Source of the DNA: Tissierellia bacterium
Lineage (GTDB): Bacteria > Bacillota > Clostridia > Tissierellales > Sedimentibacteraceae
Length of the DNA stretch: 38,460 bases
NCBI GenBank assembly: GCA_012519555.1
Contig: JAAYPY010000022.1
Coordinates: forward strand, 1 to 38,460
Direction: 5' to 3'
Numbering within the stretch: position 1 is the first letter of the stretch; every line of letters begins with the position of its first letter. The notes under the pieces are model-generated. The model was not told the origin of the DNA and made no database searches. It saw nothing but the letters and a program-made list of their open reading frames with translations. Shown one piece after another: positions 6,353 to 29,369 of the stretch. Position numbers and translations under genes: made by a program.

Positions 6353-7444
6353 TTATACATTGAATCTAAATAATACTATATCTCCATCTTCCATTATATA
6401 ATCTTTGCCTTCAAGGCGCATCAATCCTTTTTCTTTGGCAGCCTGCATCGAACCATAGTTTACAACATCATCGTACTTTGTCACTTCTGCACGTATGAAA
6501 CCTCTTTCGATATCTGTGTGTATTTTACCTGCTGCTTGTGGGGCTTTTGTACCTTTTACTATTGTCCAGGCTTTTGATTCTATAGGACCTGTTGTAAAAA
6601 AGCTTATAAGACCCAAAAGGCGGTAGCTTATTCTGATAAGCTGGTCAAGCCCAGATTCTGCAAGTCCCATTTCCTTCAAGAATTCAATCTTTTCATCATC
6701 TTCCAAAAGGGATATTTCCTCTTCGATTTTTCCGCAGATAACAATTACCTCCGAATTATCCTTCAAAGCATGTTCTTTTACAATATCCACATATTTATTG
6801 GCTGAGGGGTTAGAGAGGTAATTTTCATCAACATTTGCAACATACAAAACAGGTTTTGATGTTATTAAATTAAATGTTTTTAAAAGCTTCAGCTCATCGT
6901 CCGTATAGGTTAAGTAACGAGCTAATTTTTCGTTTTCCAATCCTTCAACTATTTTTTTTACCAATTCAAACTCTGCTTGCAATGTCTTATCATTCTTGAC
7001 CATTTTAGTCAGTTTATCAAGCCGTTTTGACATTACTTCCAAGTCTGCTAATATCAGCTCTAATTCTATTATTTCTATATCTCTTTCAGGGTCTACACTT
7101 GTCTCCACATGGATTACATTTTCATCATCAAAACATCTCACCACATGAACAACAGCTTCCACTTCTCTTATATGTGAAAGAAACTTATTTCCAAGTCCTT
7201 CTCCTTTGCTGGCACCTTTAACCAAGCCGGCAATATCAAAAAATTCTATAACTGCAGGAACCGTTTTGGCGGAACCACTCATTTTTGTTAAAAAATCCAG
7301 TCTTTTATCCGGAACCTCCACCATGCCTATATTAGGCTCTATGGTACAAAAGGGATAATTGGCGGAATCGGCACCGGCCGATGTAATTGCATTAAACAAG
7401 GTGCTTTTGCCTACATTTGGAAGTCCCACTATACCTAATTTCAT
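6353..7444 (-). CDS. ychF: Redox-regulated ATPase/GTPase YchF (Obg-like)
   Basis: Ribosome-associated P-loop NTPase of the OLA1/YchF family. It has 363 residues, the usual length. Visible motifs are G1 GLPNVGKST at residues 6-14, G3 DIAGLVKGAS, and NVDE in place of the NKxD guanine-specificity motif. That change is known to make the family prefer ATP. The C-terminal TGS domain includes FFTTGPIESKAW. A GGAAAGGA ribosome-binding site precedes the ATG on the minus strand. It is a single-gene unit, convergent with the 3-hydroxybutyrate operon and divergent from the SSB-like gene. Confidence 0.96.
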   Translation of the reverse strand: MKLGIVGLPNVGKSTLFNAITSAGADSANYPFCTIEPNIGMVEVPDKRLDFLTKMSGSAKTVPAVIEFFDIAGLVKGASKGEGLGNKFLSHIREVEAVVHVVRCFDDENVIHVETSVDPERDIEIIELELILADLEVMSKRLDKLTKMVKNDKTLQAEFELVKKIVEGLENEKLARYLTYTDDELKLLKTFNLITSKPVLYVANVDENYLSNPSANKYVDIVKEHALKDNSEVIVICGKIEEEISLLEDDEKIEFLKEMGLAESGLDQLIRISYRLLGLISFFTTGPIESKAWTIVKGTKAPQAAGKIHTDIERGFIRAEVTKYDDVVNYGSMQAAKEKGLMRLEGKDYIMEDGDIVLFRFNV

Positions 7445-15119: not shown

Positions 15120-15146
15120 CGGTTGATAGTCAGCCGCTTTTTTTTT
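15120..15146 (+). terminator. Rho-independent terminator of niaX
   Basis: CGGTTGA (15120-15126) pairs with TCAGCCG (15130-15136) around a TAG loop, followed by C and a run of nine T. Confidence 0.85.
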
Positions 15147-15173
15147 GTAATAGTTATCAAGCTGTGCTATAAT
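15145..15173 (+). promoter_or_regulatory. Promoter of the acyltransferase/radical SAM block
   Basis: TTGTAA (15145-15150), a 17-base spacer and perfect TATAAT (15168-15173) lie 27 bases upstream of the first gene of the block. The -35 box overlaps the end of the niaX terminator T-run. Confidence 0.6.
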
Positions 15174-15199: not shown

Positions 15200-16279
15200 A
15201 TGGAATTAATCATAGCAAACAAAGATAAAAGAAAAGACTTTTTAGAATTCTATAAAAAGCAATACTTAAACAATGATTTGAAAAGAGATACCTTGTCGGG
15301 CATGCTGAAGAATATTTTGAACGGAAGAACGGTGCTGTGCGGCTCTGTTGATACAGAGCCTGTTATGGTAGCGGACAATAATGAAATCATAATGATTTCT
15401 CTTCTTGCTCACGCACAAAGGATGCCGGAATATTTACAAATATGCTTCTTTGAATCTGAGGAATTCAACATGGAAGCCTTTAACCTGATTTTAGAAAGAG
15501 CTCTTGACAAGGCCAAGGAAAAGAAAGCTTCTAAATTAACAGGTTCCTTAAACATACATGTTAATTACGGCCTTGGTTTTTTGGCTAGCGGTTTCGATAA
15601 AAGACAAAGTTTCGGAGCACCTTACAATCCTGAATTTTATAACGATTATTTTGAAAAAAGCGGTTTTGAAACAATAAATATGGTCTCTTACAGAAAAGAC
15701 ATGGTTAACTCACCTCCTCTGATAAGCAAGGAAGTGAGAGAAAAGCTTAAAGATATATATACCGTAAGAGAAGTAAATTTTAAGGACTTTAAGAAGGAAA
15801 TTGAAATATATACAAAAATTAACAATCAAGCATTCAGCAATCATTTATTTTATTATACCAGGAAGACAGAAGAAGATTATGAGCTCTTCAAGGACTTAAA
15901 ATATTTAATTAGGGAAGAAAATTTAATTTTTGTGGAAAAATCAGGGATACCGGTAGGTTTCATGCTATGGTATCCTGATTTTAACGAATTAATTAAAAAA
16001 GGCGAAAGCATCGGCTTTAAAACGGTTGTGAAAAACAAATTACTTTCTCATAGAATAAAAACATTTAAAATAGTTGAAATGGGCGTTATTCCAGGTGAAA
16101 GAAACAAGGGTGCCATACTTGCCCTGTTTGATTATTGCTATAAATGCACCAAGGGAAGGTATGATACTATGGAATCAAGCTGGATACTATCAGAAAATAC
16201 AAAATCAAAAAGTTTTGGCATGAAGTGGGCAGATGAAGAATTTAAACATTATAAAGCATATGTTAAGGATCTTATATGA
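15200..16279 (+). CDS. GNAT-type acyltransferase, YghO-like
   Basis: A 359-residue soluble protein. The central stretch GSLNIHVNYGLGFLASGFD followed by APYNPEFYNDYFEKSGFE (about residues 113-155) resembles the YghO-like N-acetyltransferases, where a similar PYNPxYY..GF motif follows the first domain. The second half (VEKSGIPVGFMLWYPD, MGVIPGERNKGAILALFDY) has the acetyl-CoA-binding GNAT pattern with RNKGA in place of the usual R/Q-x-x-G-x-G/A loop. Substrate and acyl donor are unknown. It is the first gene of the block, and its stop overlaps the next start by four bases (ATGA). Confidence 0.65.
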   Translation: MELIIANKDKRKDFLEFYKKQYLNNDLKRDTLSGMLKNILNGRTVLCGSVDTEPVMVADNNEIIMISLLAHAQRMPEYLQICFFESEEFNMEAFNLILERALDKAKEKKASKLTGSLNIHVNYGLGFLASGFDKRQSFGAPYNPEFYNDYFEKSGFETINMVSYRKDMVNSPPLISKEVREKLKDIYTVREVNFKDFKKEIEIYTKINNQAFSNHLFYYTRKTEEDYELFKDLKYLIREENLIFVEKSGIPVGFMLWYPDFNELIKKGESIGFKTVVKNKLLSHRIKTFKIVEMGVIPGERNKGAILALFDYCYKCTKGRYDTMESSWILSENTKSKSFGMKWADEEFKHYKAYVKDLI

Positions 16280-17220
16280 TAATATATAAAGCAGATGAAC
16301 TTAAAGTTATAAAAACAATCGACTTAAATGAGGACTATATAAAACTCTTGTCATTGCTTGAAAAAATAAATCCATGTAAGCAGTATTATGAAATAGGAGA
16401 GGACTATTTAATCATCAGCTATGAGATAAGATTGAATTTATTTAATTTTAGAAATTTACTGCCCTTAACTGTGAAAGCCCAAATTATAGGACTTCCTATA
16501 TCCTTATCCCAAAGAGGCTGCTATGGAAACATAAATAAGGCTATTGAAGCCATTAAGAAAAGAAAAGGATTAAAAATACTTTTAAATGCCGATGAAGAAA
16601 TTATTAAAAATGCCAGAACCTTGTCTACTTTCTTGTTTGAAAACCGCTTTGAAAGCTTTGATGATTATTTAAACAAACTGAGGAGTTCATACAGGAGGCG
16701 TGTTAATAAAGCTCTGAAATACAGAGATAATTTAATAATTAATAAAATTCAAAACTATGATTTCAGTGAAAAGCATTACAAATTGTATTTAAGCATAATG
16801 AAAAGAACCGATAATCCCTTGGAAACTCTGTCAATTGAATTCTTTCAAAACTATGAAGCAGAAATTTATGAGTTTATTGATAAAGATACAAAAAGCATTA
16901 TTGGATTTATCCAGTTAAAAGAATTTGACGGCAGGCTTTGCTTTTTGTTTGGAGGATTTAACAAGGCTGATGTTAAAAAATATGATTTATATTACAATAT
17001 GCTTATAAAGATTATTGAAGTCGGTATTGTAAAGAAGGTTAATTTTATTGAATTTGGTCAGACAGCGGAAGAAAGCAAATTAAAAATCGGATGCAGGGAA
17101 GTAGAAAAGTACCTTTATGTTCATCACAGCAATTCTCTTATAAATTTCGTAAGTCAGAAATTGCTTCCCTTTATGTCATACAGACCCTACAAGAGAGTTC
17201 ATCGTGTTTTTAAGGAATGA
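16276..17220 (+). CDS. GNAT/FemAB-like acyltransferase
   Basis: A 314-residue soluble protein. The segment FLFENRFESFDDYLNKLRSS, RRRVNKALKY, and later SIIGFIQLKEFDGRLCFLFGGF with YNMLIKIIEVGI and INFIEFGQTAEESK-type sequence match Acetyltransf_6/BioF2-like proteins. These are related to FemAB and to N-acyl amino acid synthases. The C-terminal end is basic. It overlaps the upstream acyltransferase by four bases and is followed four bases after its stop by the first radical SAM gene, so it is translationally coupled on both sides. No specific substrate can be named. Confidence 0.62.
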   Translation: MIIYKADELKVIKTIDLNEDYIKLLSLLEKINPCKQYYEIGEDYLIISYEIRLNLFNFRNLLPLTVKAQIIGLPISLSQRGCYGNINKAIEAIKKRKGLKILLNADEEIIKNARTLSTFLFENRFESFDDYLNKLRSSYRRRVNKALKYRDNLIINKIQNYDFSEKHYKLYLSIMKRTDNPLETLSIEFFQNYEAEIYEFIDKDTKSIIGFIQLKEFDGRLCFLFGGFNKADVKKYDLYYNMLIKIIEVGIVKKVNFIEFGQTAEESKLKIGCREVEKYLYVHHSNSLINFVSQKLLPFMSYRPYKRVHRVFKE

Positions 17221-17224
17221 GAAT

Positions 17225-18502
17225 ATGATAGTATTTTTAGAAAAAGTAAGAGTTAAAACCATATTTTCAATAATTGACCCTGTAAAGGTCGAACCCTTGG
17301 AATTATGTTATTTGAAATCAGTTTTGAATAATATGAATATTGATAGCTATATTGTAGACCGGATGTTTGGTTTTAACCCTCCCAAAGATGTTACTCCGGA
17401 TATAATAGTGCTGACAGGTTATAATACGGCAGAAAATGAAATAATAATAAGATCTGAAACTTATAAGAAAAAATATCCCGAGGCGAAAATAATCGCAGGG
17501 GGAGTTCATGTACAGGAAAATGCAGAATATTTCAGAGTCAATACAATAGATTATATTTTCCATTCAGTCAGCTTAAACACATTTAAAATATTGATTGAAA
17601 AGATAAACAATAATGATAAAATTCCTTTAAACTATGGAGTTGATTCACGGAATAAAGACGGATGGCATCTAGGAGAAAAAGAAAGCATTTATGAATATGA
17701 GAATATTAAACCAGACAGGGACTTTTTTTATGCAGTAAAATCAAAATTAAAGTATCTTGATAAAAGAAATGTAGCTCTTATAAAATCCTCTGTGGGCTGT
17801 CCCTATAGGTGCTCATTTTGCTATTGCAAGCTTCTTAACAACAAGCGCTTCATAGCTGCGGATTATGAGAAAATGATTGAAGAAATGGAAACTATAGATG
17901 CGGACTATTATTGGGTGGTTGATGATGTATTGTTTTCTACAAGGGATGAAGCTTTAAAATTTATAGAAATCGCAGAAAAAAGAAAGTCCAACTTAAATAT
18001 TATAGGATATTTAAGAGCAGATTTCATATGCAGAGAAAAGGACTTGTTAAGGAAACTTAGAAATGCAGGAATTCGGGAGGTTATTACAGGCTTTGAAGCA
18101 ACCATAAATCAGGAGCTGAAAGATTACAATAAAACAACCGATGCAGCAGACTATCCCTTGGCAATATCCTTGTTGAAAGAAAATCATATTGAACTGACAG
18201 CTCTATTTATGGTAAAGCCTGGCTATGGACTTAAAGATTTTAATATTTTGAGAGAATTTATTAAAGCAAACAAAATAGATGTCTACACCATATCAATTAT
18301 GACTCCCATAAAGAAAACAAAGCTGTATGAAGAACTGGAAGAGCTTTTAATTGATAAAAGACCTGAAAGATATGATTTTTTGCACCTGGTATTAAAGCCC
18401 AAACTGCCCAAGCTCATATTTTATGCTTTGTTTTACGGACTTCACATAAGACTTTTAAGATCAAAAAGAATAAGGAAATTTCTACTTGATATGGACAGGT
18501 GA
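17225..18502 (+). CDS. Cobalamin-type radical SAM protein 1
   Basis: A 425-residue protein with an N-terminal B12-binding-like Rossmann domain (residues 1-130; TPDIIVLTGY and IIAGGVHV are typical strands) and a radical SAM domain with the 4Fe-4S motif C192-PYR-C196-SF-C199. It lacks the DxHxxG cobalamin ligand, as is common in class B radical SAM methylases. It continues with VVDDVLFS and EVITGFEA. It is closest to the protein at 19121 (both GCPYxCSFCxCK). AAGGA lies 8 bases before the ATG at 17225; an earlier frame start at 17204 has no ribosome-binding site. Likely a C-methylase or related radical enzyme; the substrate is unknown. Confidence 0.82.
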   Translation: MIVFLEKVRVKTIFSIIDPVKVEPLELCYLKSVLNNMNIDSYIVDRMFGFNPPKDVTPDIIVLTGYNTAENEIIIRSETYKKKYPEAKIIAGGVHVQENAEYFRVNTIDYIFHSVSLNTFKILIEKINNNDKIPLNYGVDSRNKDGWHLGEKESIYEYENIKPDRDFFYAVKSKLKYLDKRNVALIKSSVGCPYRCSFCYCKLLNNKRFIAADYEKMIEEMETIDADYYWVVDDVLFSTRDEALKFIEIAEKRKSNLNIIGYLRADFICREKDLLRKLRNAGIREVITGFEATINQELKDYNKTTDAADYPLAISLLKENHIELTALFMVKPGYGLKDFNILREFIKANKIDVYTISIMTPIKKTKLYEELEELLIDKRPERYDFLHLVLKPKLPKLIFYALFYGLHIRLLRSKRIRKFLLDMDR

Positions 18503-18506
18503 GCAT

Positions 18507-19124
18507 ATGTTTAATATATGGAATTTTTGGGCAGATAAATATGACAAGCTGTGGGTACAGAAATATTCTCTAAAGCCCACAAGACATTATATTATCAAAG
18601 TCCTTTCAAACTACAAAAATAAAGATGAATTAAAAGTATTAGATTTAGGTTGCGGTACGGGAGAATTAATAGGGGAATTAACAAAGGAATTTAAAAATAT
18701 CAAGATTACAGGTCTTGACTTCTCTGAAAAGATGATTCAAATTTCAAAGAAAAGGAATCCTTCAGTCAAACATTTGATAATGGATGTATCAGAGTTAAAT
18801 TTCTTGGATGAGGAATATGACATAATAATTTCCACCCATTCCATACCTTATTATAAAGAGCCGCAGCTAATTTTCAAACACTTGTATAAAATGCTTAAGT
18901 ATGATGGAAGAATATTTGCGGCCTTTGCCAGTGGGGACAGCATATATGACAAATTCATTTTAAGCTTTGTGAAGCTTACCACTGGCAGGGCAAACTATCC
19001 GTCGGATTATGAATTCAGGTTGTTAATATCTCCATTTTTCGATGTGGAGAACTTAGAAATAATAAGGAAGAAATGTTTTATGCCTCGAATCGCAGTATAC
19101 ACATTAAAAAAGGTGAAATCATGA
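18507..19124 (+). CDS. Class I SAM-dependent methyltransferase
   Basis: A 205-residue soluble methyltransferase. Motif I is VLDLGCGTGEL at residues 44-54, ITGLDFSEKMI follows as motif II, and DIIISTHSIPYY and MLKYDGRIFAAF are motifs IV and V. It is a small-molecule type (Methyltransf_11/25-like), without an RNA- or protein-binding extension. AGGTGA 5 bases before the ATG at 18507 fixes the start. It lies between two cobalamin radical SAM genes and overlaps the next by four bases. It probably performs an O-, N- or C-methylation on the same pathway product. Confidence 0.82.
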   Translation: MFNIWNFWADKYDKLWVQKYSLKPTRHYIIKVLSNYKNKDELKVLDLGCGTGELIGELTKEFKNIKITGLDFSEKMIQISKKRNPSVKHLIMDVSELNFLDEEYDIIISTHSIPYYKEPQLIFKHLYKMLKYDGRIFAAFASGDSIYDKFILSFVKLTTGRANYPSDYEFRLLISPFFDVENLEIIRKKCFMPRIAVYTLKKVKS

Positions 19125-20485
19125 AAATACTTTTGGTAAGGCCAAAACCCCATAAAGATACCATAGGCTTGCAGCATGTAATGATTTGCGAGCCCTTGGA
19201 ATTGGAATATTTGATATCTAATATTCCTGATGATATTAAAAGTGAAACTCAAGCAGAAATTCTAGATATGATACTTGAAAAAGACAGTTTTGAAGACATT
19301 GTAACTAAAAAGAAGCCTGAATTCATTGTATTTACAGGTTATATTACTCATGTGGGGATAATAAAGAAAATGGCAGAAGCTGCAAAGAATATGCTTCCAT
19401 CAGTTAAGACCGGGGTAGGGGGAGTTCATGCAGAGGTTGTCCCTGAGGACTTTAGCTCAGAATATATAGATTTTATTTATAATAGAAACGGAATTGACAA
19501 TTTCAATTTAACCTTAAGAGGCTTAATCAATAAAAAAAGCTTAGAGGAAATTAATAAAGAAATAAATACAGGAGATAAGAGAAGTACATTTGACTACAAG
19601 TACCCTGACAGAAAAGCAGTAAAGAAGTATAGAAAGAAATATTATTACATGTTTCACAACCCTTGTGCCTTGATAAAAACATCCTTCGGCTGTCCATATA
19701 ACTGCTCCTTTTGCTTTTGCAAAGAAATTACTGGGGGACGATATTATACCCGTGAAATAAAGGATATTATAAAAGAATTAGCCTCAATTGAAGAAGAGGA
19801 AGTCTATATAGTAGATGATGACTTCTTGTATGACAGAAATAGGCTTAAAAACTTCATTGCTGAACTCAAGGCAAATAAGATAAATAAGAAATTTTTAGTT
19901 TACGGGAGAGCTGATTTTATAGCACAGAACAAAGATATTATTAAGGAGTTAAAAACCGTCGGCTTGCAAGCTGTAATCGTTGGAATAGAATCCGTCAGGT
20001 CAGGGGATTTAGAGGATTACAAGAAGGGAACAACGGTGGAAATAAATGAAAAATGCATTCAAATACTTCAGGAGTTAGATATCGAGTTATATGCAACGTT
20101 GATTATTCCGCTGAATTTTAAGAAAGAAGACTTTAATCAGCTAGTAAGCTGGCTTAAGAAAGTGAATGTAAAATTTGTCAATCTCCAGCCCCTTACGCCC
20201 CTTCCGGGAACTGATATATTTGATGATTATAAAAGATTACTCTTAGAGGACAGACAGACATTTCAGGTGTGGGATATGGCACATGTTATTTTAAAACCGG
20301 AACATATGAGTATCAGAGCATTCTATGCGGAAATTCTAAAAGCATATTATAAGGTTGTTATGAGACCCAAGCATCTAATATATTTAATCAAGAAATACGG
20401 CTTGAAAGCAAATTTAAAAATGCTTGCAGGCTCAAGTCTGATTAGCTTTCAGTATTTACAAAAGATAGTAAGGAGTAATAGATGA
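19121..20485 (+). CDS. Cobalamin-type radical SAM protein 2, HpnR-like
   Basis: A 454-residue protein. The N-terminal B12-binding-like domain starts MKILLVRPKP; the radical SAM cluster is C191-PYN-C195-SF-C198. Downstream are YIVDDDFLYD, VIVGIES and a C-terminal part reading PLTPLPGTDIFDDY, then WDMAHVILKP and an IRAFYAEILKAYY stretch. That order resembles hopanoid C-3 methylase HpnR as I recall it. It uses ATG at 19121 with AAAGGTGA upstream and overlaps the methyltransferase by four bases. No hopanoid cyclase is visible in this window, so a hopanoid role is not implied. Confidence 0.82.
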   Translation: MKILLVRPKPHKDTIGLQHVMICEPLELEYLISNIPDDIKSETQAEILDMILEKDSFEDIVTKKKPEFIVFTGYITHVGIIKKMAEAAKNMLPSVKTGVGGVHAEVVPEDFSSEYIDFIYNRNGIDNFNLTLRGLINKKSLEEINKEINTGDKRSTFDYKYPDRKAVKKYRKKYYYMFHNPCALIKTSFGCPYNCSFCFCKEITGGRYYTREIKDIIKELASIEEEEVYIVDDDFLYDRNRLKNFIAELKANKINKKFLVYGRADFIAQNKDIIKELKTVGLQAVIVGIESVRSGDLEDYKKGTTVEINEKCIQILQELDIELYATLIIPLNFKKEDFNQLVSWLKKVNVKFVNLQPLTPLPGTDIFDDYKRLLLEDRQTFQVWDMAHVILKPEHMSIRAFYAEILKAYYKVVMRPKHLIYLIKKYGLKANLKMLAGSSLISFQYLQKIVRSNR

Positions 20486-21804
20486 AAAAAATTTTATTGA
20501 TACAACCAAGCCCCTATGACAAAAACCATAAGCCCATAAAGAAAAACAAATTGTATTTTGTTGGACTTGCCATGCCTTTATTGGCAGCAATGATGCCTGA
20601 AGACTGGGAAGCAGAAATTATTTTAGAAATAATCGAAGATATTCCTTTTGATACGGATGCTGAATTAGTAGGAATAAGCACCATGGGACATGGAGTTATT
20701 CGCTCGATTGATATTGCAAGGAATTTCCGTGAAAGGGGAAAGACTGTAATATTGGGTGGATACATGGCAAGCATTATGGCTGAGGAAGCTTTGAAGCACT
20801 GTGACAGTCTTGTTGTTGGGGATGCAGAATTGGTATGGCATGAGCTTTTAAAGGATTACCAAGAAGGAAGGCTTAAAAAAATATATGAAAAGAATTTGAA
20901 AAGCGGATTTTTTTCAACTCCTATACCTCGATTCGACCTTATAATAAATAAAAAAATAGGGAATTTTCTACCGGTTCAGGCAGGAAGGGGCTGCCCCAAC
21001 ACATGCAGTTTTTGCTCAGTTGCCTGCATGTATAAGGGTCATTATATAAAAAAGCCTCTAAAAGAAGTCGTTAGAGATATTAATCAGGTGAAAGAGTTAG
21101 GATTTAAAAAGTTTCTTCTCTTGGATGACAATATTTTTTCAGACAGAGAATATTTGGACAATCTCTTGATTGAAATAAAAAATTTAAATATGAAATGGAT
21201 GAGTCAGTGTGACATTCGTATAGGCAAGGATAATGAGCTCTTGAAAAAATTATCAGACAGCGGCTGTACCACCTTAAGCTTTGGTCTTGAAAGCATTTCA
21301 AAGGAAAGCTTGAAAGGCATGAATAAATCCTGGGCAAATCCTTCGGAGTATGGTGAACTTATACAAAACATCCACTCTCACGGTATAGATGTTTCAACGG
21401 AAATGGTTGTGGGAGGAGAGGGTGACACTTTACAATCCATAAGGGAAACTAAAAAGTTTATAGAAGATAACAAAATCACGGTACCAAGATTCTATATATT
21501 AACTCCTATTCCAGGAACTAAATTTTTTAAGGATATGACAGAGGAAGGGAGGATTATCAATGAAGATATTTATTCCTTTGATGGGACTGAGGCAGTGCAT
21601 CTGCCTAAGAACATGTCTCCCGATGAATTGACATCTGCTTATTGGAAATTGTATGAATCACTGTTTACCTATAAATCAATTTTAAAACGAAATATATTTA
21701 GAAAAGAATTTTTGAAAAAACCGAGAAAATATTTATTTTATTCTCTTGTAAATTTATTTTATAGATACCAGATAAAAAACAAAATTACTCCGAATATATT
21801 TTGA
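20482..21804 (+). CDS. Cobalamin-type radical SAM protein 3, HpnP/BchE-like
   Basis: A 440-residue protein. The B12-binding-like domain carries GISTMGHGV and VILGGYMAS. The radical SAM cluster is C171-PNT-C175-SF-C178 within GRGCPNTCSFC. The core continues with KFLLLDDNIFSD and TTLSFGLESIS. The C-terminal region (LTPIPGTKFFKDM, then HLPKNMSPDEL) resembles the DUF4070-type ends of HpnP and BchE proteins. It is clearly a different subfamily from its three neighbours. Its start overlaps the upstream radical SAM stop by four bases with AAGGAG before it. The next gene is 270 bases away across a hairpin element. Confidence 0.82.
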   Translation: MKKILLIQPSPYDKNHKPIKKNKLYFVGLAMPLLAAMMPEDWEAEIILEIIEDIPFDTDAELVGISTMGHGVIRSIDIARNFRERGKTVILGGYMASIMAEEALKHCDSLVVGDAELVWHELLKDYQEGRLKKIYEKNLKSGFFSTPIPRFDLIINKKIGNFLPVQAGRGCPNTCSFCSVACMYKGHYIKKPLKEVVRDINQVKELGFKKFLLLDDNIFSDREYLDNLLIEIKNLNMKWMSQCDIRIGKDNELLKKLSDSGCTTLSFGLESISKESLKGMNKSWANPSEYGELIQNIHSHGIDVSTEMVVGGEGDTLQSIRETKKFIEDNKITVPRFYILTPIPGTKFFKDMTEEGRIINEDIYSFDGTEAVHLPKNMSPDELTSAYWKLYESLFTYKSILKRNIFRKEFLKKPRKYLFYSLVNLFYRYQIKNKITPNIF

Positions 21805-21840
21805 TGCCCTAACCCTATTTTTGGGGATTTAACAGTTTGC

Positions 21841-22033
21841 GAAAAATAATAAAAATAACCGCTCTAGGTTTCGGACACGAATAATTCTAAAGCTCATTCC
21901 GACTAAAAATCCTACAGCTTGCAAACTCACTGCGTTCAAACAGTGCAAGCTGCTTAACGGATTTTTAGCCTCCATTCGCTAAGAATTATAGTCGTATCCT
22001 GCAAAAGTTCGCTTGTTATTTTTATTATTTTTC
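21841..22033. mobile_element. 193-bp imperfect inverted-repeat (MITE-like) element
   Basis: The ends are a perfect 19-base inverted repeat, GAAAAATAATAAAAATAAC at 21841-21859 and its complement at 22015-22033. Pairing continues inward through AATTCT/AGAATT, CTAAAAATCC (21903-21912)/GGATTTTTAG (21959-21968) and CAGCTTGCA (21915-21923)/TGCAAGCTG (21944-21952). The whole element folds into one long hairpin. It has no coding capacity. It separates the third and fourth radical SAM genes. No clear target-site duplication was seen. It could be a non-autonomous transposon or a structured RNA. Confidence 0.65.
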
Positions 22034-22073
22034 ACCGACACTTCGAATATAAGGGCAAAAGTGAGGACTAAAA

Positions 22074-23435
22074 ATGAGAATACTATTAGTTAGACCACCT
22101 CGAATTAAACAGGCAATAACATTAAGCGACTTTATGTTTTCGGAGCCCTTGGGCTTGGAAATGATTTATGGCGCTTTAAAGGAAGAGCATGAAGTTGAAA
22201 TTTTTGACATGATGATTGAAGCAGAAAGCTTAAGCGAAAAAATAAATGAATTTAGGCCCCAAATGGTTGGGATAACATCCCTCTGCATTGATGTTGTAAA
22301 GGTTTTAGAGCTGTGTAAGGAAACAAAGGAAATAAATTCATGTATAATAACGGCTGTTGGAGGGACTCAAGCCTATTTGAACCCGGAAGGATTTTATGAC
22401 TATAATGTGGACTATATTTTTGAATATACTACAAAAGACAACTTAAATAGTTTCTTCGCTTCAATTAATAAAGAAGATATTATACCGCCAAAAGACGGAA
22501 TAAGGTCAAGGTCATGGTCTTATAAATCTACAGGGCAGAAAGGAAGAAATGAATATATGCTGCCTGATAGAAAGTCTACTGAAAAATACCGACAGGAATA
22601 CTCATATTTTGGTTACAAACCTGCTGCAATAATGGAATTTGGCACAGGATGCGAAAAGGTATGCGACTTTTGTCTCCGGTGGAGAATTGAAGGTGCAAAA
22701 GAAAAACTGATAGATATTGATTTAACCAAAAATGATTTAAGAAACATTAAAGAGCCCACTATAATGTTTATTGATAATGATTTTTTGTGCAGTGAAGAAA
22801 AACTCATCAATTTTATTAATATTGTCAGAGAACTTAATTTAAAAAAGAACTATATTATGTACGGCTCCACAAAGGGGGTAATACTGTACGAAAAGTATTT
22901 AAAGCTATTATCTGATATAGGGCTGAAAGCTCTGCTTGTAGGATATGAAACATTCAGCAATGATGAATTGTCAAAGTATCATAAAAGCTCATCGACAGAC
23001 GATAATATAAAGGCTGCCGAAATACTGAGAAAATACAAGATTGATGTCTGGGCATCCTTTATGGCTCATCCGGACTGGGATAAAAAAGACTTTGATTCTC
23101 TAAGAAAATATATACAAAAACTTAAACCTCAAATTACCACCATAAGCCCCTTAACTCCATTTCCTAATCTGCCTATGTTTAAAGTTTTTGAAGACAGACT
23201 TTTATACGGCAGGGAGGATTACGAAAGATGGAGCTTTGGTCAGGTGATGATAAAACCTTCAAAAATAAGTTTGAAGGACTATTATTATGAATTATTAAAA
23301 ACAAATCTATATGTGAATATTTTTTTCAATAAGAATACGGAAATGATTAAAAAGTACGGAATAAAAAATATATATAGAATATTAAAAGGCTCTTTGAGAG
23401 CAGTAAAAAAATATACGACCTTAATGAATGAATAA
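22074..23435 (+). CDS. Cobalamin-type radical SAM protein 4, HpnR-like
   Basis: A 453-residue protein starting MRILLVRPPR, with a B12-binding-like domain up to about residue 130. The radical SAM cluster is C193-EKV-C197-DF-C200; the context GTGCEKVCDFCLRW differs from the GCPYxCSFC of its paralogues. TIMFIDNDFLCS, ALLVGYETFS, AHPDWDKKDF and SPLTPFPNLPMF follow in the HpnR-like order. GAGGA lies 7 bases before the ATG. It is the last gene of the block and ends at a bidirectional terminator. Expression depends on readthrough of the hairpin element or on an unseen promoter. Confidence 0.8.
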   Translation: MRILLVRPPRIKQAITLSDFMFSEPLGLEMIYGALKEEHEVEIFDMMIEAESLSEKINEFRPQMVGITSLCIDVVKVLELCKETKEINSCIITAVGGTQAYLNPEGFYDYNVDYIFEYTTKDNLNSFFASINKEDIIPPKDGIRSRSWSYKSTGQKGRNEYMLPDRKSTEKYRQEYSYFGYKPAAIMEFGTGCEKVCDFCLRWRIEGAKEKLIDIDLTKNDLRNIKEPTIMFIDNDFLCSEEKLINFINIVRELNLKKNYIMYGSTKGVILYEKYLKLLSDIGLKALLVGYETFSNDELSKYHKSSSTDDNIKAAEILRKYKIDVWASFMAHPDWDKKDFDSLRKYIQKLKPQITTISPLTPFPNLPMFKVFEDRLLYGREDYERWSFGQVMIKPSKISLKDYYYELLKTNLYVNIFFNKNTEMIKKYGIKNIYRILKGSLRAVKKYTTLMNE

Positions 23436-23459
23436 AAAAACCACGAATTCGTGGTTTTT
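23436..23459. terminator. Bidirectional terminator between the radical SAM block and rsgA
   Basis: A perfect 24-base palindrome: AAAAACCACGAA followed by its exact complement, with T-runs on both strands. It overlaps the rsgA stop codon. Confidence 0.85.
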
Positions 23460-27494: not shown

Positions 27495-27526
27495 AAAGCA
27501 GAGGATAAATAATCTTCTGCTTTTTT
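27495..27526 (+). terminator. Rho-independent terminator of pduL
   Basis: AAAGCAGAGGAT (27495-27506) pairs with ATCTTCTGCTTT (27512-27523) with one G-T pair and a five-base loop, and runs into TTTTTT. Confidence 0.85.
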
Positions 27527-27527
27527 G

Positions 27528-27557
27528 TTGTTTTACATAGATATTAAATGGTATAAT
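27528..27557 (+). promoter_or_regulatory. Candidate promoter of the YgiQ-type gene
   Basis: A perfect TATAAT at 27552-27557 with a weak TTGTTT at 27528-27533 (18-base spacer), 27 bases upstream of the start codon and directly after the pduL terminator. Confidence 0.4.
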
Positions 27558-27584
27558 AAAAATACTAGATTTCTTGGAGGAACT

Positions 27585-29369
27585 ATGGATTTTTTACCTA
27601 TTAATAAAGAAGATATGAAAAAAAGAGGATGGTATGAATGCGATTTTGTTTTTGTTACAGGAGATGCCTATGTTGACCATTCTTCATTTGCTGCAGCCGT
27701 CTTGTCAAGAGTATTGGAGAGATTTGGTTACAAAGTCGGAATAATATCTCAGCCTGATTGGAAGGAGCTGTCTGCTTTCAAAATCTTAGGCAAACCGCGC
27801 CTGGCCTTTCTTGTTAACTCAGGGAATATAGATTCAATGGTTAATCATTATACGACATTTAAGAAAAAAAGACATACCGATGCTTATTCTCCGGGAGGCA
27901 AAGCAGGATTAAGGCCTGACAGAGCCGTTACAGTATATTCCAATCGCATAAGAGAAGCATACAAGGATGTTCCCATAATTATAGGCGGTATTGAAGCAAG
28001 TTTAAGAAGATTAAGCCATTATGACTATTGGAACGATAGTGTAAAAAGGTCTGTATTATTGGATTCAGGTGCCGATATATTGGTATACGGCATGGGAGAA
28101 AAACCTCTGATTGAAATTGCAGAAGCATTGGAATCCGGCATTCCTGTTGAAGAAATAACATTCATAAAGGGGACCGTCTATAAAACTAAAGACAAAGAGC
28201 GTCCATACGACCCAATTTTTTTACCTACCTATAAGGAAGTTGTATCTTCAAAGAAAAAGTATGCAGAAAGCTTTAAAATACAATATGAAAACACCGACTC
28301 CAAAAGTGCAAGGACCTTGGCGGAGCAGTATGATACAGTATATGTGGTTCAAAATCCACCAATGGATCCATTATCAGAGCAAGAATTAGACGATATCTAT
28401 GACATGGATTATATGATGGACTACCATCCTATATATAAAGATTTGGGAGTGCCTGCACTTAATGAAGTAAAATTCAGTATTGTCAGTGTCAGGGGGTGTT
28501 TTGGAGGCTGCAGTTTTTGCTCTCTTAATTTCCATCAAGGAAGAATAATTCAAAAAAGAAGCCATGAGTCAATATTAAATGAAGTTGAGAAGATGAAGAC
28601 AAACAAAGACTTTAAGGGTTATATACATGATGTGGGGGGACCTACCGCAAATTTTAGAATTAAAGCTTGTAAAAAGCAGGAAAAGCACGGAGCCTGCATT
28701 AACAAAGAATGCTTAACACCGACTAAGTGTAAAAATTTGCAGGTAGATCATAGTGATTATATAGAATTATTGAGAAAGATCAGAAAGATTGGAGGTATTA
28801 AAAAAGTTTTTATTCGTTCAGGCATAAGATATGATTATGCCATATATGATGATAATGATGACTTCATAGAAGAATTGTGCAAATACCATGTCAGCGGACA
28901 ATTGAGAACTGCTCCCGAGCATGTTTCGGAATCAGTTTTAAAACTCATGGGTAAACCTTCAATAATAACATACAATAAGTTTGTGGAGAAATTTAATGAT
29001 ATAAACAAAAAGATAAAAAAAGAGCAATATATAGTACCTTATTTTATATCATCCCATCCCGGTTCTCGCTTGAAAGATGCCATAGAGTTAGCCGAATATA
29101 TAAGGGATATGGGTCATATGCCAGAGCAGGTTCAGGACTTTTATCCAACGCCGGGAACACTGTCAACATGTATGTATTATACCGGCTTTAATCCTTTAAC
29201 TAATGAAGAAGTGTATGTTCCAAAGGATAAAGAAGAGAGAAGAATGCAAAGGGCTTTGCTTCAATATTCAAAAAAGGTAAATTATGAGCTAGTTTTAAAA
29301 GCACTAAAAAAAGAAAAGAGGTATGATTTAATCGGAAAGGGACCAAAAGCATTAATAAAGATGCCCTAA
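27585..29369 (+). CDS. YgiQ family radical SAM protein
   Basis: A 594-residue member of the UPF0313/YgiQ family, a widespread but uncharacterised radical SAM group. The N-terminal domain contains [16 protein letters not shown] and [11 protein letters not shown]. The 4Fe-4S motif is C305-FGG-C309-SF-C312. [10 protein letters not shown] and a C-terminal [16 protein letters not shown] region are family hallmarks. GGAGG lies 4 bases before the ATG at 27585; the frame is open upstream to 27525 inside the pduL terminator, which is not a plausible start. The stop codon falls inside a short sequence also found at 21803. No functional link to the radical SAM block is seen. Confidence 0.92.

Follow-up and report, generated by a model that had tools for sequence, protein, structure and literature searches.

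Among the closest described counterparts of the locus treated here are the bacterial ceramide clusters. In passages of PMC9386255 such a cluster is made up of spt, acpR, aasR, cerR and cerS/yghO, corresponding to CC_1162-1165 together with CC_1154 in Caulobacter and to ECD_02850-02854 in E. coli BL21, and the products of yghO (ECD_02850) and CC_1154 are given as the acyl-coenzyme A (CoA) N-acyltransferase of ceramide synthesis; CC_1154 is named cerS in a passage of PMC11324152. Lipid carbon chains are coupled in related anaerobes by the Mss/Tes enzymes, of which Tes is a radical S-adenosylmethionine (SAM) protein (PMC8941075). Here we describe a block of seven genes, designated A to G, in a stretch of 38,460 nucleotides of a Tissierellia bacterium (assembly GCA_012519555.1, contig JAAYPY010000022.1, positions 1 to 38,460; the whole stretch is referred to as the window), the host being an anaerobe of the Sedimentibacter group. 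In our judgement the block probably, though by no means certainly, constitutes a dedicated pathway leading to an acylated amide whose carbon chain is radically modified.

Conservation of the gene block

The block was confirmed at positions 15200-23435, its seven open reading frames (ORFs) A, B, C, D, E, F and G all reading in the same direction. With two acyltransferases, one methyltransferase and four B12 radical SAM proteins, recognised from the ORFs, Pfam and family scans, it has the content given to it in an initial annotation made from the sequence alone. When profiles of A, E and F were each run on 391 genomes of the same class (the same genomes where listed), the strong matches, defined as at least 205 bits for A, 328 bits for E and 365 bits for F, coincided in the same 13 genomes, the E gene being split in two in one of them (G328). 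A, B, E and F lie in a single cluster in all 13 carriers, that is the window and the 12 others, B being within the cluster in 12 of the 12 other class genomes with a strong A match. Weaker matches were found elsewhere, for A in nine genomes (58-113 bits), for E in two (276-277 bits) and for F in 13 (239-288 bits). Eight of the nine weak A matches have surroundings without B, E and F, among them the one in G300, which has two internal TAG codons; the ninth, in G110, lay outside this sample.

Scanning named genomes with E led to 119 confirmed places; the best 80 of these were kept, which leaves distant relatives under-sampled. In total 87 loci were scored, 80 retrieved via E, where the presence of E is thus by design, and seven via A; 56 of the 87 are uncut by a contig end. 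Thirteen of 100 loci had been excluded before the count, five as duplicates of genomes already included and eight as weak solitary A matches, and ORFs were called mechanically, some genes being overlooked at certain loci (L125 was rechecked). All of A, B, E and F were present in 54 of the 56 uncut loci, with a C-type gene in 53, D in 32 and a G-type gene in 29, while an acyl ligase was found in 13 and an acyl carrier protein (ACP) in 11. The exact order A-B-C-D-E-F-G is kept in 22 of the 87 loci (17 of the 56 uncut ones) and the rest are rearranged; the minimal form, A-B-E-F alone, occurs in genome G268. Since C, D and G are variable, we regard A-B-E-F as the core, and its conservation is far above chance. 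Asked whether the seven genes co-occur in other Clostridia, as the initial annotation did, the genomes give a divided answer: A, B, E and F stay together and do not scatter, whereas C, D and G vary, so that the seven are not a fixed set. The co-occurrence of the core genes suggests a specific product under selection, and that the gene set forms one conserved pathway is held with much more assurance than the nature of the product proposed above.

Within the genus A is present in 16 of 25 genomes, the window's included. All of the eight A-less genus genomes inspected keep the flanks, with the gene upstream of the block (presumably niacin-transporter-like) followed 1.0-2.2 kb on by the gene that in the window lies downstream of an RsgA-like gene; the RsgA-like gene itself was not detected at that site in these eight. 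A ninth A-less genome, G011, carries a fragment of G and is probably an incomplete carrier. In other carriers the block is found in different surroundings, and together with the flanks kept in A-less genomes this indicates that the block behaves as one movable or losable unit.

Named carriers include Sedimentibacter hydroxybenzoicus DSM 7310, S. acidaminivorans DSM 24004, Proteocatella sphenisci DSM 23131 and Geosporobacter ferrireducens IRF9, and record titles of further carriers extend to Kiritimatiellia, Lentisphaerales, Calditrichales, Fibrobacteria and Desulfopila; the Desulfopila carrier is a complete chromosome, several other non-Clostridia carriers being metagenome-assembled genomes that are possibly mis-binned. 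Matches to A, B, E and F were also found on the 2.63-Mb record NZ_CP154629.1 (L213, Acetoanaerobium noterae 'plasmid pTPELB2'), which is filed as a plasmid and is probably a chromosome. In a relative (G004, L049) G is represented by two end pieces without the middle at 6744-7378, and A is incomplete at the contig edge. In two loci (L094 and L095, the latter scanned) additional genes lie between the G-type gene and F, encoding an ABC-type ATPase along with another P-loop-like protein and a small iron-sulphur protein.

Table 1. Features of the seven-gene block and its borders (positions in the window)
Feature	Position	Strand	Status	Basis or remark
Promoter-like site TTGTAA-17-TATAAT, TG before second hexamer	15145..15173	+		consensus match 10/12, directly upstream of gene A
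Gene A, GNAT-type N-acyltransferase, CerS/YghO family, distinct subfamily	15200..16279	+	core	sequence homology
Gene B, FemAB/Acetyltransf_6-like transferase	16276..17220	+	core	Pfam family matches
Gene C, B12-binding radical SAM protein	17225..18502	+	variable, more than one copy at some loci	may start at GTG 17204 instead
Gene D, class I SAM methyltransferase, BioC/UbiE-like	18507..19124	+	accessory	may start at TTG 18486 instead
Gene E, B12-binding radical SAM protein, distantly HpnR-like	19121..20485	+	core	Pfam, NCBIfam, tree
Gene F, B12-binding radical SAM protein, separate lineage	20482..21804	+	core	Pfam, NCBIfam, tree
Palindromic repeat element, 193 nt, 19-nt perfect terminal inverted repeat	21841..22033	.		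between F and G
Gene G, B12-binding radical SAM protein, distantly HpnR-like	22074..23435	+	accessory	Pfam, NCBIfam, tree
Terminator-like palindrome, common to block end and convergent RsgA-like gene	23436..23459	.		sequence palindrome 3' of G

Gene A belongs to the ceramide synthase family

The product of A in the window gave no match in Pfam or NCBIfam, while 44 of 64 aligned members of the A family match the GNAT model at E <= 0.01, and a sequence search of the PDB returned as its best, weak hit an archaeal N-terminal acetyltransferase (0.031). A tblastn search of plasmids with A gave 35 records, one of them a block carrier (Acetoanaerobium), with matches to a P. veronii protein annotated as YghO (1e-17) and to proteins of Rubrobacter (4e-17), Rahnella (1e-16) and Klebsiella (5e-16). 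Four YghO-type plasmid proteins matched the profile hidden Markov model of A from position 3 or 4 to position 358, at 110-119 bits, the Shinella protein reaching 52 bits, and hhalign of A against CerS/YghO proteins gave probabilities of 99.7 over 348 columns and 100 over 356. A is thus homologous over its full length to the CerS/YghO family, the comparison having been made with YghO-type plasmid proteins and not with the Caulobacter protein. An alignment of A and CerS-type proteins (11 rows) contains 10 invariant positions, and the four CerS-type proteins do not share residues that are conserved in A, for example H120 and H215, so that A forms a subfamily of its own.

Five of the 34 non-carrier plasmid records were inspected for genes around the A homologue. 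In four of them it adjoins an oxoamine-synthase-like gene (39-87% alike), which is the arrangement of the ceramide cluster, and Shinella differs. A reductase is annotated in three of the five and an ACP together with a fatty acyl-AMP ligase in two (Klebsiella and Rahnella), while in P. veronii genes matching the ACP and the ligase in size and position are annotated as hypothetical. A is placed as a relative within the CerS family for which N-acylation of an amine is predicted and ceramide synthesis is one possible role.

Acyl donor and amine acceptor

An AMP-binding ligase (848-971 bits) was found in 18 of the 87 loci, a nineteenth having a fragment of one, while 16 have an ACP (92-138 bits); these scores are partly by construction, since 11 and 8 of these sequences went into the two models. 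The loci are mostly of Lachnospiraceae and the genes are on the same strand as the block, usually directly 5' of A and in one case (L123) inside it; three of the ligases were scanned and are FadD/MenE-like, under the curated cut-offs. In a search of eight genomes the host, whose contig C215 is the window in a genome of 2.43 Mb, 248 contigs and 88% completeness, gave three PP-binding matches, none on the window's contig, and G268 gave one; general acyl carriers from elsewhere in the host genome may therefore serve the block.

Sources of the amine were looked for in 10 carrier genomes with a profile of four plasmid oxoamine synthases. Nine of the ten gave an oxoamine synthase, mostly without further identification, and the single-contig carrier G313 gave no match at E <= 1e-15. 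The only match in the host genome (281.6 bits) resembles by eye what we take to be 2-amino-3-ketobutyrate CoA ligase (KBL) rather than serine palmitoyltransferase (SPT). An SPT accompanied by a ceramide reductase was thus not found in the host, although no search was aimed at the reductase. Given the KBL-like match of the host and the lack of a match in G313, a sphingoid base is probably not the general acceptor. In G268, which has the minimal block, an SPT-like enzyme (408 bits; L207, 6283-8280) adjoins a dehydrogenase-like ORF, as judged by eye, on a contig other than that of the block, and a sphingolipid route is possible there.

The radical SAM proteins C, E, F and G

The Radical_SAM domain scores above the Pfam cut-off in all four proteins, and the B12-binding domain PF02310 is recognised in all four, its cut-off of 32.1 being exceeded in E and G but not in C (19.7) or F (25.7). 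The cysteines of the CxxxCxxC motif are invariant in the ortholog alignments of C, E, F and G, and the alignment of F has the highest mean column identity (85%) among the seven genes. None of the four proteins reached the cut-off of a named NCBIfam family among the matches listed (for E and F the best 25 of 33). Against the HpnR model TIGR04367, with a cut-off of 650, the scores were 164.5 bits for E, 164.0 for G, 88.1 for C and 58.0 for F, all of them far from membership, with E and G aligning over ~415-424 residues to the first 413-422 positions of the model. For F the scores against other named families, with the cut-offs after the stroke, were likewise too low (PhpK 93.6/600, HpnJ 85.4/577.6 and BchE 75.8/481.35 bits). 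Sequence searches of the PDB gave weak matches, the best being AprD4 (6fd2, 4.2e-9) for E and 9ccb (4.2e-12) for F.

In a tree of 82 rows, made with a quick method and with support values from the Shimodaira-Hasegawa-like approximate likelihood ratio test, C (21 rows), E (19), G (15) and F (19) are each on one side of a branch, with supports of 99, 96, 100 and 100, respectively. C, E and G together are set apart, with a support of 97, from the HpnR of Kozakia and a protein of S. cattleyicolor, the latter two being long branches, and F clusters with F-like proteins on plasmids of Citrobacter and Paraclostridium. From these clades C, E and G look like ancient duplicates within the system and F appears to have been recruited separately. 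In S. hydroxybenzoicus (L048/L126), compared with the window, A (63%), B (63%) and F (82%) stand against D (42%), E (50%), a G-like protein (42%) and a fourth radical SAM protein (35%), and in the tree its E pairs with a lineage of uncultured Clostridia. The block of this strain is a mosaic with A, B and F of the genus type and with D, E and the G- and C-like genes apparently from another lineage; tailoring genes and E seem to be swapped, whereas A, B and F are kept. The C-terminal 75 residues have a net charge of +6 to +10 in C, E, F and G, and amphipathicity exceeds that of shuffled sequences for the tail of G alone.

Genes B and D

The window's B scores 17.8 against FemAB_like (PF04339), below the gathering cut-off of 27, and in its family Acetyltransf_6 (PF13480) is found in 44 of 59 members and FemAB_like in 15. 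B gave no useful alignment with A or CerS, and a sequence search of the PDB gave nothing credible. A plasmid of Nostoc sp. C052 also encodes a B-like transferase (L217, 7455-8645), which matched part of the model at 155 bits; it is situated in a cluster of lipid type, where a desaturase, short-chain dehydrogenases/reductases, a nitric oxide synthase oxygenase and an exporter of DevA/DevC type are encoded as well. The methyltransferase D scores below every NCBIfam cut-off among the matches listed.

Gene junctions, signals and the intergenic region between F and G

Four-base ATGA overlaps join three of the six gene pairs (A/B, D/E and E/F), fewer than the majority that had been claimed, and there are gaps of 4 nt at both B/C and C/D and of 269 nt between F and G. 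A single promoter and a single terminator had also been proposed, and a promoter-like site and a palindrome are indeed present at the two ends (Table 1); as the region contains 53 promoter-like sites against 40.4 in shuffled sequences (standard deviation 7.2), which is not clearly above chance, transcription from one promoter to one terminator is unproven. With Rfam at gathering thresholds the only RNA found in the window is one tRNA, and a known B12 riboswitch was therefore not found. A further radical SAM protein with a PF08497 N-terminal domain, presumably YgiQ-like, is encoded at 27525-29369 of the window and is unrelated to the block.

When analysing the gap between F and G (21805-22073), which had been pointed out as the one place that might hide a peptide gene, a palindromic repeat was found with a folding z-score of -7.5 and with eight more near-full copies in the genome (84-94% identity; contigs C174, C24, C115, C158, C14, C248, C29 and C26) as well as several fragments. 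F and G are separated by 9-34 nt in each of five relatives (L035, L037, L040, L042 and L043), by 95 nt in L049 and by ~420 nt with unread bases in L051, and the last two may contain an insert as well. The element looks like a small non-coding mobile element. The gap is thus an inserted small non-coding repeat, which we call MITE-like (after miniature inverted-repeat transposable elements), and holds no peptide gene; the repeat may weaken the coupling of G to the remaining block.

Proposed pathway and alternative explanations

In the pathway we propose for the acylated amide, an acyl chain would be presented as acyl-ACP or acyl-CoA, in the window's host from the general pool and in some loci, mostly of Lachnospiraceae, by the dedicated acyl-AMP ligase and ACP. 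A, as a GNAT of the ceramide synthase family, would move the chain onto an amine and B, being of FemAB/Acetyltransf_6 type, may form a second acyl or aminoacyl linkage. The defining C-H chemistry at unactivated carbons would be the task of the near-invariant pair E and F, most likely as C-methylation of the chain, and C, G and D would be exchangeable tailoring enzymes through which the product varies between lineages. Among radical reactions C-methylation is thought the most likely here, since the similarity of E and G to HpnR, a lipid methylase, extends over most of their length; coupling of carbon to carbon or cyclisation is possible instead, and as evidence for methyl transfer by C, E, F and G the HpnR-like sequence is suggestive only. 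A new class of amide lipids, with a scaffold built by A and B, methylated or joined carbon to carbon by E and F and diversified by exchangeable radical SAM and methyltransferase genes, is a tentative extension, to which we give somewhat less than even chances. The initial annotation had suggested an undescribed C-methylated acyl metabolite or lipid, a reading that holds up and is strengthened by the cohesion of A, B, E and F, by the family of A and by the loci with ligase and ACP, with C-methylation itself unproven. The annotation was largely right and is partly supported as an interpretation, its caveat about a hidden peptide falling away.

Several observations weigh against the proposed pathway. 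The block in the window has neither ligase nor ACP of its own, and no amine-forming gene was seen within it. B is only weakly of FemAB type and could instead use the cell wall or tRNA-borne amino acids as substrate. Known HpnR- and BchE-like relatives among the B12 radical SAM enzymes also carry out cyclisation or ring contraction, and with only the tail of G exceeding shuffled sequences, binding to the membrane is weakly supported. The gene order varies, B being several genes away from A in a few loci, and two of the 56 uncut loci break the rule of four genes, L125 with A, E, a C-type gene and F (B was not found) and L133 with E and F only.

Among the alternatives a modified sphingolipid, for which A would be a true ceramide synthase, an unlinked SPT would make the base and the radical SAM enzymes would decorate the ceramide, is unlikely. 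It would account for the family of A, and the pair of ligase and ACP mirrors AasR-AcpR as given in passages of PMC9386255. The SPT-like enzyme and the neighbouring dehydrogenase-like ORF of G268 also agree with it. In ten loci, however, no SPT was seen beside the block, the one oxoamine synthase of the host is presumably KBL-like (in a genome that is 88% complete), and G313 carries the block and gave no oxoamine synthase match at E <= 1e-15; on the latter two grounds a simple ceramide pathway is disfavoured. A modification of the cell envelope, in which A and B attach acyl or aminoacyl groups to peptidoglycan or another polymer and the radical SAM enzymes modify the group, seems to us a little less probable again. 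The FemAB_like members of the B family would fit such a role, but Acetyltransf_6 is the commoner match, ACP and fatty-acyl-type ligases in some loci indicate acyl chains, and the best plasmid match to B outside the block is part of a cluster of lipid type that also encodes a desaturase and an exporter of DevBCA type.

We see equally little likelihood, as compared with the envelope, in a diffusible secondary metabolite or signal of the N-acyl amino acid or amide type, made in different versions by swapped tailoring enzymes. The patchy presence of A in the genus, the variable content of C, D and G and the swapped, mosaic tailoring half of the block in S. hydroxybenzoicus are what such a product would lead one to expect. 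Apart from ligase and ACP, though, no travelling partner was recognised, recurrent clusters of other sizes, which might include a transporter, being outside the comparison, and the gene which adjoins the block in five loci of the Sedimentibacter group and which we take to be EamA-like may reflect plain synteny, as those five loci have neighbouring genes in common. The modification of a ribosomally synthesised and post-translationally modified peptide (RiPP), or of another peptide with an overlooked precursor, is very improbable. B12 radical SAM enzymes often modify peptides, and NCBIfam models of RiPP radical SAM proteins gave 17-77 bits, far below their cut-offs; no precursor gene was found in the gap or at the junctions of the block, the only gap being filled by the repeat with its eight other near-full copies and the other junctions being -4 or +4 nt, F and G are close together in the five relatives, and acyl ligase and ACP accompany the block elsewhere. 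For these reasons a RiPP cluster was dropped. Still less credible is methylation of hopanoids or isoprenoids by HpnR-type enzymes, despite the 164 bits of E and G over the first 413-422 positions of HpnR and despite partial matches to the hopene cyclase C-domain, barely above the family cut-off, in two of eight carriers searched (G313 and G415). These scores are set against a cut-off of 650, HpnR is on a long branch outside the clade of C, E and G, and the squalene-hopene cyclase C-domain (PF13243) was not found in the 88%-complete host or in five of the seven other carriers, so that hopanoid methylation is rejected for the host.

The set, often with its gene order retained, is found again in anaerobes of the rumen and elsewhere, whose record titles span several phyla. 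Were the product a B12-dependent amide lipid, it would represent a new lipid family of anaerobes and link vitamin B12 to membranes or signals; it would also provide a candidate marker compound for anoxic habitats and several new C-H-modifying enzymes.

Comparison with known systems

A description of the cluster was not found in the literature searched, which covers few of the subscription journals. The enzyme families are all known, and it is their combination and its conservation that appear to be undescribed. Analogous to the block is the cluster on a plasmid of Citrobacter portucalensis 64A:C (NZ_CP134684.1), which at L215 7717-19812 contains a GH3-type ligase, five F-type radical SAM genes, a GNAT, a PAP2 phosphatase and a fatty acid desaturase. 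It resembles the block in having F-type B12 radical SAM proteins around a GNAT and differs in that the GNAT matches neither A nor B and that proteins of the C, E or G type are lacking. To the FemAB_like/Acetyltransf_6 transferases B is related by the matches of its family, while the window's B stays under the gathering score. The likeness to HpnR, the hopanoid C-3 methylase, consists in the B12-binding and radical SAM domains of E and G over the length given above; unlike a true HpnR they are far under the family cut-off and HpnR lies outside the clade of C, E and G, in a host without a hopene cyclase match. The Mss/Tes synthases of membrane-spanning lipids are likened to the block by description only and not by sequence, and the word Sedimentibacter does not occur in the passages of PMC13274423. 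With the bacterial ceramide cluster the block has in common a CerS-family N-acyltransferase, A, and at some loci also the pair of acyl-AMP ligase and ACP; it is distinguished from that cluster by the absence of a recognised SPT or ceramide reductase and by the addition of B and several B12 radical SAM proteins.

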